Shown: piece after piece, positions 1 to 3,893 of the stretch | Layout: each line of letters opens with the position of its first letter | How positions within the stretch are numbered: position 1 is the first letter of the stretch | Source: Verrucomicrobiia bacterium | GTDB lineage: Bacteria; Verrucomicrobiota; Verrucomicrobiia; Limisphaerales; JAEYXS01 | NCBI GenBank assembly: GCA_036405135.1 | Contig: DASWYF010000047.1 | Span: 1-64,000, forward strand | Length of the DNA stretch: 64,000 nt | Direction: 5' to 3' | Made by a program: the position numbers and the translations under genes | The notes under the pieces: generated by a model | Seen by the model: the letters and a program-made list of their open reading frames with translations, nothing else | Databases searched by the model: none | What the model was told of the DNA's origin: nothing

Positions 1-114
1 AGCAGTGCAAGCCCAACCGTCCGTGCTCTTCAGACCCCAAACCTCCCGCGAGGCCAAAACGCGCTCAACAAACCGGGCGTGTCGTTCTTTGGATGCGATG
101 GCGAGGTCGAGCAT
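1..114 (-). CDS. Integron cassette gene, DUF2750-like (partial)
   Basis: This reading frame starts with ATG at 114-112 and runs off the left edge of the window, so only the first 38 residues are visible. The stretch RFVERVLASREVWGLKS followed by DGWA resembles the N-terminus of DUF2750 proteins, small proteins of unknown function often found as integron cassettes. The start lies 18 bp beyond the attC box at 132-138, the short leader usual for cassette genes. It has the same strand as the two cassette genes to its right, so it would be the third cassette counted from intI. The family assignment rests on a short segment. Confidence 0.6.
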   Translation of the reverse strand, partial: MLDLAIASKERHARFVERVLASREVWGLKSTDGWACTA

Positions 115-128
115 ACCGGTGGTGTGAT

Positions 129-227
129 GTGGCCTAACGACCCAAGCTCAGCGACCCGGCACACGGGACGCAATGATTGCAAACCGTGGCGTCATGCCGG
201 GTTCGCTGCAGCGCCTGGTTAGGCCAC
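129..227 (-). repeat. attC: attC recombination site (second from intI)
   Basis: Read on the minus strand, the site begins with the R'' box GCCTAAC (224-218) and ends with the R' box GTTAGGC (138-132), matching the attC consensus RYYYAAC...GTTRRRY. The outer ends extend to a perfect 10-bp inverted repeat (129-138 with 218-227). Inner arms CAGCGACCCGG and CCGGGTTCGCTG pair except for one unpaired base, like the extrahelical bases of folded attC bottom strands. It is nearly identical to the site at 505-602 except in the central loop. The stop codon of the 219-494 gene lies in its R'' box. Confidence 0.9.
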
Positions 228-494
228 GTTCCAGTGAATCGGTGCATGGCGATACTGCTCAGGAAGCTCGGCCTTGGCGGTCGCAATCGAATCATAAACC
301 TGATCTTGTTGGCACTCCCACTGACTGTCGCAACTGAACCGATAAATCTCCGGTGAACCATCATACCGACAAAAAGCCAAACCGTGGATGACCGCAGCGA
401 TGCTGCCGTCGGTGCATGGAACGCTACCGAATGGTGCATCCGACCATGCCCACTCCAAAACGAGCGCGTTGTCTATGTGGGATGGAGGGTGCAT
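219..494 (-). CDS. Integron cassette gene, 91-aa hypothetical protein
   Basis: A 91-residue acidic, tryptophan- and cysteine-containing soluble protein with no motif I can assign. It opens with MHPPSHIDNALVLEWAWSD and contains CDSQWECQQD in its second half. It fills the cassette between the attC sites at 129-227 and 505-602: ATG at 494 is about 10 bp inside the cassette, and the TAA stop (221-219) is the TAA of the attC R'' box. Such proteins of unknown function are the commonest cargo of chromosomal integrons. It was probably acquired and is presumably read from upstream, because no promoter is evident in the short leader. Confidence 0.75.
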   Translation of the reverse strand: MHPPSHIDNALVLEWAWSDAPFGSVPCTDGSIAAVIHGLAFCRYDGSPEIYRFSCDSQWECQQDQVYDSIATAKAELPEQYRHAPIHWNVA

Positions 495-504
495 GGCGTG
501 TGCA

Positions 505-602
505 GTGGCCTAACGACCCAAGCTCAGCGACCCGGCGCACGGGACGCAATGATTGCAACCGCGACGCCCCCGCCGGGTTCGCTGCAGCGCATGGTTAGGC
601 AT
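505..602 (-). repeat. attC: attC recombination site (first from intI)
   Basis: On the minus strand the R'' box GCCTAAC lies at 600-594 and the R' box GTTAGGC at 514-508. The imperfect inner arms are the same as in the site at 129-227 (CAGCGACCCGG against CCGGGTTCGCTG, one unpaired base). The two sites share most of their length and differ mainly around 560-575, the loop end of the folded single strand. ATGCCTAAC at the intI-proximal end matches the attI core at 1118-1126. The site closes the RDD cassette, whose TAA stop lies in R''. Confidence 0.92.
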
Positions 603-1101
603 TTCGGGTAACAACTGTGCCGGCAATAAAATCATGCAAAGCTCGCCGTTTCTCGTTCGTCGCCATCGTGATGATCTCCAACAAAAACCAACCCATGCTG
701 GCCCACATGAGTATCTGCCCGGGCAACGAACTGATCTCTGCACCGGAGACATACTTACCTGCGAGAACCAAGTAAATGAGATAGGCCAGTGAGAGCGTGT
801 TCAAGATTATGTATCCGATGTCGCGGAGAAAAGCTTGGCGAAATGTCGGTATCCGCTCTTCTGAGACATCCAGCACCTTAATCTTCATTGCCATTTTGCC
901 GAGCGTCTGCCCGTAGCGAGAATGGAGAAGGACGCTGTAAAGCCAGTACGACGAATAGATAATGCCGCTCCAAATAATGATTATGGCCGGGGGGCGCTCC
1001 GGCGCTGACAGAAACGAATCCACGAACGACAGCGGAAGAAACACCAAGCCGTCGATAAATCCGGCGCAGAAGCGAGGCCAAAACGTCTGATACTTTTCCA
1101 T
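595..1101 (-). CDS. Integron cassette gene, RDD family membrane protein
   Basis: A 168-residue RDD-family protein. The N-terminal motif [11 protein letters not shown], the central [15 protein letters not shown] and the C-terminal [13 protein letters not shown] are the conserved blocks of the family, separated by three or four hydrophobic segments typical of an inner-membrane protein. Some RDD proteins act in ion transport or stress tolerance, but no function can be fixed here. It is the first cassette: ATG at 1101 lies 17 bp inside the attI core and the TAA stop (597-595) falls in the attC R'' box. Being next to attI, it is the cassette most likely to be expressed. Confidence 0.88.
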
Positions 1102-1117
1102 ACGATAGTGAGCGAGA

Positions 1118-1126
1118 AATGCCTAA
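1118..1126 (-). other. attI: Putative attI core site
   Basis: On the minus strand this reads GTTAGGCAT, the same core as the R' box of the attC sites, and it lies between intI and the first cassette where attI is expected. Only the simple core (crossover at G/TTAGGC) is recognisable; the flanking integrase-binding sites cannot be delimited by eye. Confidence 0.75.
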
Positions 1127-1128
1127 CA

Positions 1129-1158
1129 TTGTACTATACCGCAAAGTGTCGGTACTAT
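1129..1158 (+). promoter_or_regulatory. Candidate intI promoter
   Basis: TTGTAC (1129-1134) and TACTAT (1153-1158) are separated by 18 bp and would start transcription near 1165, upstream of the preferred intI start at 1227. No LexA-type CTGT-N8-ACAG box was seen. A perfect TTGACA on the opposite strand (1242-1237) might belong to a cassette promoter, but no good -10 follows it. Confidence 0.35.
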
Positions 1159-1226
1159 TGGATATTGGCTTGGTTGACTGGTTGGAGCAGTGTATGCCTT
1201 GGACATGTGGGCAAGTTGAAGTTTGT

Positions 1227-2261
1227 ATGAGTATTTTGTCAAATAAAAACACCGCGCGGCAGGTGGGCGGACAGAGTTTTGTGCCGAATCCGAAGTTGCG
1301 GCTGCGGGAGCAGGTGCGGGAGGTGATGCGGTTCAAGCATTATGCGGTGCGGACAGAGGAGACTTATTGGGGGTGGATGAAGCAGTTCATCGTGTTTCAT
1401 GGGAAGCGGCATCCGCGAGAGATGGGGGCGGGGGAGGTGCATGAGTTTTTGACGTGTCTGGCGGTGGAGCGGCGGGTGGCGGTGGCGACGCAGAACCAAG
1501 CTTTGAACGCGTTGGTGTTTTTATACGGGGAAGTGTTGCATCAGCCGTTGGGGCAGTTGGCGGTGTTCGAGCGGCCGCAGCGGCCGGCGCGGTTGCCGGT
1601 GGTGCTTTCGGCGGGGGAGGTGCAGCGGTTGTTGGCGGGGGTGGGGATGAGGTATGGGTTGGTGGTGCGGTTGTTGTATGGAACGGGGATGCGGGTGATG
1701 GAGGGGTTGCGGTTGCGGGTAAAGGATGTGGATTTTGAGCGGGGGCAGATCGTGGTGCGGGATGGCAAGGGGGCGCGGGACCGGGTGACGGTGTTGCCGG
1801 AGTCGTTGCGGGGTGAGTTGCGGGAGCATTTGGCGCGGGTGCGGGTGGTGCATGGCGGAGATGTGGCGGCGGGTTTTGGCCGGGTGTTTTTGCCGGGGGC
1901 GTTGGCGCGGAAGTATCCGGGGGCGGAGCGGGAGTGGGGTTGGCAGTGGGTGTTTCCGGCAGAGCGGCGGGCGCGTGATCCGGAATCGGGGGTGGAGCGG
2001 CGGCATCATTTGCAGGAGGAGAATGTGCAGCGGGCGGGGTTGGTGAAGCGGGTCTCGCCGCATGTGTTGCGGCATTGCTTTGCCACGCACTTGCTGGAGA
2101 GCGGCTATGACATCCGGACGGTGCAGGAGCTTTTGGGGCACAAGGATGTGAGGACGACGATGATTTATACGCATGTGATGGTGAAGCCGGGTTTGGGGGT
2201 GAGGAGTCCACTGGATGGGGCGGGTCGTACCCTCGAGCCTATCGGGGAAAGTGGCGCGTAG
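1227..2261 (+). CDS. intI: Integron integrase IntI (tyrosine recombinase)
   Basis: A tyrosine recombinase with IntI features. The N-terminal domain (about residues 25-110) has the family sequence [11 protein letters not shown]. The catalytic residues are R in GTGMR, HVLRH, the H of LLGHKD and the nucleophile Y in MIYTHV. The segment [13 protein letters not shown] is the extra IntI-specific region that distinguishes integron integrases from XerC/XerD. I chose ATG 1227 (344 aa) because [10 protein letters not shown] is usual near the N-terminus of related integrases; ATG 1194 has a better Shine-Dalgarno (GGAG), and 1119 lies inside attI. Between VQRA and GLVKR, about ten residues usual in the family appear to be missing, so activity is uncertain. 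Codon use is unusually G-rich. Confidence 0.93.
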
Positions 2262-3893
2262 GGCTACAGTTGGGGAAGTCGCATGTCTCAGGTTTCAGGT
2301 CGGCAACCGTGAACGGCGCATGATGCGCGAAAGGTGAAATTTTCAACCGAATGGGGTCAGGGGAAGGGGGAAAGAAGTTTCAAGTTTTCAGAGAGAAGAA
2401 GGGCCGCAAGAAAGCGCAAAAGACGCAAAAAGAGGAGCAGAATTACGATTTTGGATTTACGATTTACGAGGAAAGGCAGAGGGGAGCGACCGCGAAACAT
2501 GCGAACAGGAAGAGGAGCAGTGGGGGATGAGAAATGCGAGTTACGTGGAATGAGGTTTTTGGATGTTCTTGTTGCGGAAAAGGTTGGGCTTCTTTCACAA
2601 ATTTTAGCGAAAAGTGGTGGTTTTCTTGCGGGTTTTGTGGGATGAATTTAGGTGCTGGCAGCTCGCTGCTGGTAAAGGAAGGGCTGACAAGCCGGTTACG
2701 TGTTTCTGGTTTTGAGTTTCGAGTTAGGGACACGGAAGGCTGAAATCCCCGCTGAATGGTTCGATGGAATCGTTTTGGCAATTCCTTATGGAAGCATCAG
2801 GAGATGGCCGAAGTGAGAAGGGCGAGGTCCGAAAGGAAAAGCGACTTTCTCGTTTGGAGTCTCTGATCTGAAGTTCGGTGGGGCAGTTGTGAAAAAAGTT
2901 TGGGCTCGTCAGGAGCCTCGCCCTACCGAGCTGGGTAGGATCTGTGGGTGTATCGGGCGCTGGATCGGGGCTCGTAAGCTGGAGGGGGAACGGGACGTCG
3001 GTGGGCGTAGGATTATTTATGTCTCACCGGGGAATCCCTAGGCGGGGCAAGGTTCGAGGTGAGAAGGGCGAAGGCCGAAGGTCGGCTTCCTATCAAACTG
3101 CGAATCTAGCCAGCCAAAGTACTCACTGCGGAACCAGCCGGGTCAAGGACGGCATCAGAGTCTGGCCTCCCTGTGAGGAGGAGCCATAGGCCAGATACAT
3201 CAACAGGGGTCGGATGGTTTCATTGCTCTTTGACATAGTTCCGTAGCCATCCAAGGGATGGAGTGGGAAGTTTTCAGTGTTCAGTTTTCAGAGGAACACG
3301 AAAGCCGAAGATTCTGCCTTTGCTCTAGATTCAAAGCGTCGAGGACGAGGACGAAGGACGAAGGACGATTGGGTGGTGTTGGAGTGGCTGGCGAGGGTCG
3401 GATTCGGATTGGTGTGGACTGATAGCTAGAGTGCCGCAGGACAGGATGCTATCGCGGAGTGTCACGCTGAACGGATCGGGCGGAAGGCGGCTCCGGGGGA
3501 ATGAATTAATTTACGATTTGGGAAGGACGATTTACGAGTCGCTCTTGTTTCCAGGTTCCGGCTGTTGGTTGGTGAAAGCCGCGAGGTTTAGTTAGGGACC
3601 GGGGTCGAAGTTCGACTTCCATACCGGTTCTTACCGGATTGGTTAGAGCCGCGGTGGCGGCTGAGGTGGGGACTGCCGGCAGGATTCCGGCAGCACGTTG
3701 GTTCTGCCTCATTATCCCGCAGCCAGGGGACGGCTACAGTTAAGGGTGGTTAGTTCTGCCTCATCACTTCGGCAGCTACGGGGCTGGAAAATGTGGTGTT
3801 TTCTGCCGCTTGCAAAAAGGCGGGGAATCGTTAGTGTTTGCGGCTCATTGCGCTTTCAACGGGCGCGATGTGACCAATAACAACGGGTTAGCG
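2262..3893. other. Gene-free, repeat-rich stretch
   Basis: I see no convincing gene. Short purine-rich segments recur: TTTACGATTTACGAG-like strings near 2455-2470 and 3507-3538, GAAGGGCGAGGTCCGAAAGG near 2817 with a diverged relative near 3062, and ACGAAGGACGAAGGACG near 3353. A GC-rich string GGGCTCGTCAGGAGCCTCG begins near 2903. Near 3705-3785 two copies of a TTCTGCCTCAT...CAGC motif occur. The open frames here lack plausible protein sequence. It separates the integron from the conserved chromosome. Confidence 0.7.
3673..3693. repeat. REP-like palindrome
   Basis: CTGCCGG (3673-3679) and CCGGCAG (3687-3693) form a perfect 7-bp stem with a 7-nt loop. A close relative is at 13901-13921. Both lie in non-coding DNA, as expected for a dispersed REP-type element. 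Confidence 0.6.

Follow-up and report, generated by a model that had tools for sequence, protein, structure and literature searches.

The start of this contig was confirmed to hold a genuine integron in a Verrucomicrobiota bacterium. The best explanation of the locus, and one that we hold with good confidence from its sequence anatomy, is a sedentary chromosomal integron that appears to be arranged as a translational relay and whose integrase (IntI) is probably impaired. We further consider it fairly probable, with less assurance, that attC sites are dual-purpose by rule: each would act as a recombination hairpin and also as a translated spacer with a selected length, start, and stop, and the array would constitute a self-maintaining relay in any cassette order. 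This rule appears to be strongest in Verrucomicrobiota and weaker elsewhere. The window (i.e., the whole stretch of 64,000 nucleotides that was analyzed) belongs to a genome of 5.8 Mb in 52 contigs. Leftward from intI on the minus strand, it presents the attI core, a gene of the RDD family, attC1, a 91-aa gene, attC2, and a DUF2750-like gene truncated by the contig end (Table 1).

Table 1. Coordinates of the integron features in the window
Feature	Positions	Strand	Evidence or remark
intI reading frame	1119..2261	+	TIGR02249 425 bits; PDB 2a3v (IntI4) E 1.6e-84
attI core, GTTAGGC on the minus strand, crossover point for the first cassette	1121..1127	-	Sequence; 12-bp match
attI leader ORF, ATG to TAG, 27 aa	1123..1206	-	Stop from the cassette core
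Cassette 1 gene, RDD-family membrane protein, 168 aa	595..1101	-	Pfam PF06271 E 3.7e-22
attC1, 93 nt	508..600	-	Covariance model 98.5 bits
attC1 ORF, ATG CCT AAC ..., 30 aa	510..602	-	Start overlaps the cassette 1 stop
Cassette 2 gene, 91 aa, no family match	219..494	-	Stop TAA inside R'' of attC2
attC2, 93 nt	132..224	-	Covariance model 93.9 bits
attC2 ORF, MHRFTGTWPNQALQRTRHDATVCNHCVPCAGSLSLGR, 37 aa	134..247	-	Overlaps the cassette 2 end; stops at the TAG in R'
Cassette 3 gene, start only, 38 codons, DUF2750-like	1..114	-	PF11042 E 9e-5, below the gathering score

The gene divergent from the minus-strand array encodes, as the sequence-only reading had proposed, a tyrosine recombinase of the IntI type with the IntI-specific region. 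Its likely start codon is the ATG at 1227, which yields a protein of 344 aa whose score against the NCBIfam integron integrase model TIGR02249 exceeds the cut-off of 265 bits. The closest solved relative is IntI4 of V. cholerae (2a3v). The folds of Xer and IntI proteins are related, and the gene could in principle encode a XerC/D-like recombinase lying beside unrelated repeats. However, the XerC, XerD, and XerA models reached only 130–157 bits on this protein, well under their cut-offs of 220–335 bits. A maximum-likelihood tree was inferred from 95 recombinases, including the genome's own XerC/D-like proteins. The protein paired with an IntI from within the order (100/96), and a 100/100 branch split the IntI side from the genome's own Xer proteins; the check for clustering with XerC/XerD that had been suggested at the outset thus places the recombinase among the integron integrases. 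In addition, attC sites were found in this genome solely beside the recombinase and on one other contig end. The chance that the gene is a Xer-like recombinase next to unrelated repeats is, in our judgment, next to nil.

The six catalytic residues of IntI are located in invariant columns (R156, K181, H279, R282, H305, and Y314 in the 344-aa numbering). The protein presents an in-frame gap of 8 residues (exactly 24 bases) between VQR and AGL, at about base 2036, in the helix ahead of the catalytic HxxR. This deletion is unique: it was found in none of the 94 other recombinases (92 integrases and two Xer proteins). In AlphaFold models, the helix spans 6 residues (264–269) versus 14 (277–290) in the closest relative of the tree, which is full-length. 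The sequence and the models suggest that the deletion probably impairs IntI, with a possible loss of activity, and the array may consequently be largely frozen. An active integron is therefore less well supported at this locus.

The two attC sites reported by the sequence-only reading do exist, although their coordinates had to be corrected from 129–227 and 505–602 to 132–224 and 508–600. Two home-made attC finders were inadequate—one based on strict folding missed many sites and the second yielded too small a number from other phyla to be of use—and we therefore used a covariance model. It was built from 23 attC sites of this and other genomes, both window sites being among the 23, and it favors attC sites of the window type. 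In the model, 95% of the cells were paired and 10 pairs had changed on both sides, a level of covariation that none of the slid controls came near. The attC-model check that had been recommended was thus run with a model built for this analysis, which matched both sites in the minus orientation (94–98 bits versus about 21 bits on the plus strand). Across the whole genome, it identified only the window pair and one more site. Fold z-scores of the attC sites were -4.3/-4.8 and -2.9/-2.7 on the two strands. Clustering attC sites at 65% identity merged nearly all of them and gave no independent groups.

At both window sites, R'' pairs with R' and L'' with L', with extrahelical bases, in the cassette orientation. 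The inner arms are formed by GCTGCAGCGAACCCGGC pairing with GCCGGGTCGCTGAGC, and a G and an A of L'' are left unpaired, as in ordinary attC sites; there are hence two extrahelical bases on one side and not the single unpaired base first described. The aligned halves of attC1 and attC2 are 95–97% alike. A core matching those of the attC sites was also expected next to intI, and this core is indeed found there; it and the opposite end of cassette 1 match over 12 bp (GAAATGCCTAAC/GTTAGGCATTTC). Cassette 1 begins with GTTAGGCATTTC and ends with GAAATGCCTAAC, whereas cassette 2 begins with GTTAGGCCAC and ends with GTGGCCTAAC. These ends fit circular intermediates, as judged from sequence, so that the outer stem would reach past the core on circle closure. 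Three cassettes had been announced: two are whole and the third is reduced to the beginning of a gene that runs off the contig end. The stop codon TAA of the RDD gene falls within R'' of attC1. More broadly, a stop TAA is drawn from the R'' box (GCC TAA C) in 24 of the 85 sites of the order, examples being window positions 594–600 and 218–224 and positions 841–847 of locus L004. To the right of intI, window positions 2262–3800 form a long stretch without a clear gene that contains short repeats such as AGTTTTCAG and GTGAGAAGGGCGA. A scan with Rfam returned zero matches.

The array had been predicted to continue beyond the left edge of the window. Base 1 of the window is base 1 of contig C47, so the array runs into the contig end, and the third attC, of the same type as the window pair, is located at the very start of another contig (C6, positions 49–141, in the same genome, G000). 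It precedes a pair of cassette-like genes, a degenerate remnant resembling attC, and then asd. This arrangement suggests that C6 possibly represents the distal end of this array; the prediction stands in this respect, and the join between C6 and C47 is a tentative one. Contig C6 (L004:49-950) opens inside a cassette and its degenerate remnant lies at about 842–914. We considered asd and lysC as fixed flanks of the array and rejected them, as the two genes are found on different contigs in relatives. Synteny of asd and lysC within the genus did not establish the join either, with asd matches that were only weak and a lysC that was cut short. The two genomes of the same genus (G001 and G002) presented 4 and 13 attC matches, respectively, and no intI at the strict E-value used; their lysC is cut short and their asd matches are weak, and it is possible that arrays break these assemblies.

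Like the sedentary chromosomal integrons represented by IntI4 of V. cholerae (2a3v), the locus possesses an IntI with the integron-specific region, an attI, near-identical attC sites of one lineage type, and genes mostly of unknown function. It differs in that very few cassettes were recovered, the array being broken by contig ends, and in that its IntI lacks 8 residues of the helix preceding HxxR. The sequence-only reading had treated an integron in Verrucomicrobiota as unusual. This view does not hold: intI was found over the cut-off in 38 of 116 relatives and attC matches in 89 of 116, and Verrucomicrobiota are already among the phyla listed as integron-bearing (PMC8618304). Integrons are ordinary in this group.

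The anatomy of the junctions suggests how such an array might be expressed. In its folded form, the bottom strand of attC would be recognized by IntI, which would integrate cassettes at attI or excise them, and the array would be read leftward from the intI side. The cassette core provides the TAG that closes the leader ORF of attI, 21 nt upstream of the first cassette gene. Each cassette gene would then end at or just ahead of R'', overlapping an ORF that crosses the whole attC and is closed by the R' TAG; the following cassette gene would begin 15–19 nt past this stop. In this way, ribosomes would open the hairpin of the mRNA and resume translation on the following gene. As every cassette carries all of these signals, the relay would be kept in any cassette order. 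In the window, an ORF through attC does begin at the stop of the cassette gene: the start codon of the attC1 ORF is the ATG at 602, overlapping the RDD stop, and that of the attC2 ORF lies at 247, inside the end of cassette 2. The attC of contig C6 presents an ATGA overlap 14 nt upstream of R'', and the pattern therefore holds at all three junctions of this attC type. A sigma-70-type promoter was looked for upstream of the array and was not found. Shine-Dalgarno motifs are absent from the cassette genes and likewise from the ordinary genes of the genome, which rules out a loss peculiar to cassettes; their absence does not, for this reason, single out coupling.

We then assessed the regularity of the frame across the order using 94 attC sites whose R boxes were clear, taken from a first set of genomes (set 1), and 56 sites from a second set that was left out of the covariance model (set 2). 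Frame +1 was defined as G/CCT AAC ... CGT TAG/GC. The length of attC was divisible by three for 126 of the 150 sites (82/94 in set 1 and 44/56 in set 2; nominal p = 5e-12 for the latter). In set 1, the TAG of R' was the first stop of frame +1 for 75 of 94 sites; the frame was broken before R' in 12/94 sites of set 1 and 19/56 of set 2. ATG codons located at most 26 nt upstream of R'' were predominantly in frame +1 (87 of 101 in set 1, versus 4 and 10 in the other phases, and 39 of 51 in set 2, nominal p = 4e-10), with spacings of 2, 5, 8, 11, 14, and 17 nt to R''. In set 1, an A preceded 64 of the 75 TGA triplets of the matching phase (85%), thereby forming ATGA, compared to 27 of the 136 long genes that terminate with TGA in the same stretches (20%); the count was 24/37 in set 2. 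The next cassette gene starts shortly past R', most often after 10–20 nt. A leader ORF in the frame of the TAG was found in 23 of 45 attI regions, versus 6 and 7 in the control frames. The translation of attC and the restart of ribosomes are thus suggested by anatomy, frame, and the statistics of starts and stops.

It is conceivable that these loci are plain integrons whose regular frame and length were inherited from one ancestral attC of 93 nt, with no bearing on translation. The attC sites of the lineage are copies of one another and 93 nt is their commonest length; because of this shared descent, the p values reported here are nominal. Yet 65 of the 89 sites with another length are still divisible by three. 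The start codons, moreover, lie outside of attC in sequences without mutual relationship (84 distinct contexts out of 85), which indicates that they are not a copied element, and their distance to R'' is variable yet 3-periodic. The rest of the class provides a further argument. In another part of the class (58 sites), only 23 lengths were divisible by three, and the stop is found in the spacer between L' and R' at -11, -12, or -13 for lengths of 0, 1, or 2 modulo 3, respectively (33 sites). Spacer stops were in frame +1 in 36 cases versus 8 out of frame (nominal p = 5e-11), and ATGA was again enriched (22/32). This shift of the stop with length in other orders argues against plain inheritance, which we consider improbable. 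There are two stop arrangements with the same outcome: an ORF that covers the hairpin and terminates directly behind it. The tendency was weaker in other phyla, with 23 of 39 lengths divisible by three (p = 9e-4) and a stop at the end of attC for 21 of 39 sites in frame +1 versus 15 and 4 in the other frames.

Two other explanations would retain the frame without a relay. The frame might merely ensure that a gene running into attC is terminated ahead of the next cassette, since genes end by the TAA in R'' or just upstream and the TAG of R' closes frame +1. Such avoidance of read-through predicts neither the 3-periodic ATG nor the enrichment in ATGA, and stops inside the hairpin, although they would halt read-through sooner, are avoided in frame +1 (set 1); this makes it a decidedly improbable account. 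Alternatively, attC might encode a functional C-terminal tail or micropeptide (PNHALQRTR...SLSLGR) selected for its sequence, as the frame is open and its start and stop are conserved. However, pN/pS in the attC loop was close to 1.0 in frame +1, with comparable values in the other frames, and we therefore rejected selection on the peptide. The peptide had no Pfam match, and other attC types of the order encode unrelated peptides. Just 5 of 85 cassette genes read directly into frame +1, which further disfavors a C-terminal tail, and none of the longest cassette ORFs of these 85 sites entered attC in frame 2. A functional peptide is accordingly very improbable. The reading frame of attC is kept and the peptide itself is unconstrained, as would be expected if translation as such is what is needed.

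Related observations exist for class 1 integrons, in which attC hairpins in mRNA impede ribosomes and the stop TAG of ORF-11 in attI1 comes from the cassette core (PMC8876359). The window is similar in that a short leader ORF across attI ends, just ahead of the first cassette gene, at a TAG that the first cassette provides through its GTTRRRY core. The leader described here is unrelated in sequence to ORF-11, is 27 aa long, and is paired with attC ORFs. According to the same review (PMC8876359), Jacquier and colleagues reported that a short attC ORF can relieve the stem-loop of class 1 integrons by termination-reinitiation. The mechanism that we propose is the same: ribosomes would restart at the attC ORF, melt the hairpin, and reach the next cassette. 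The mechanism is hence known in principle, for class 1 resistance cassettes, whereas we describe a lineage-wide regularity of start, length, and stop with two stop arrangements. The novelty seems to lie, on the strength of these patterns, in a whole lineage keeping the attC ORF as a rule in its start, length, and stop. Among the papers that we searched, there was no survey of the regularity of attC ORFs, which does not prove that none exists.

If this interpretation is correct, attC length modulo 3, frame +1, and ATGA would constitute a new signal for attC finders, and small hypothetical proteins with an ALQRT...SLSLGR ending can be read-outs of attC. The evolution of attC would be under two constraints, folding and reading frame, and distal cassettes, far from the promoter of the array, need not be silent.
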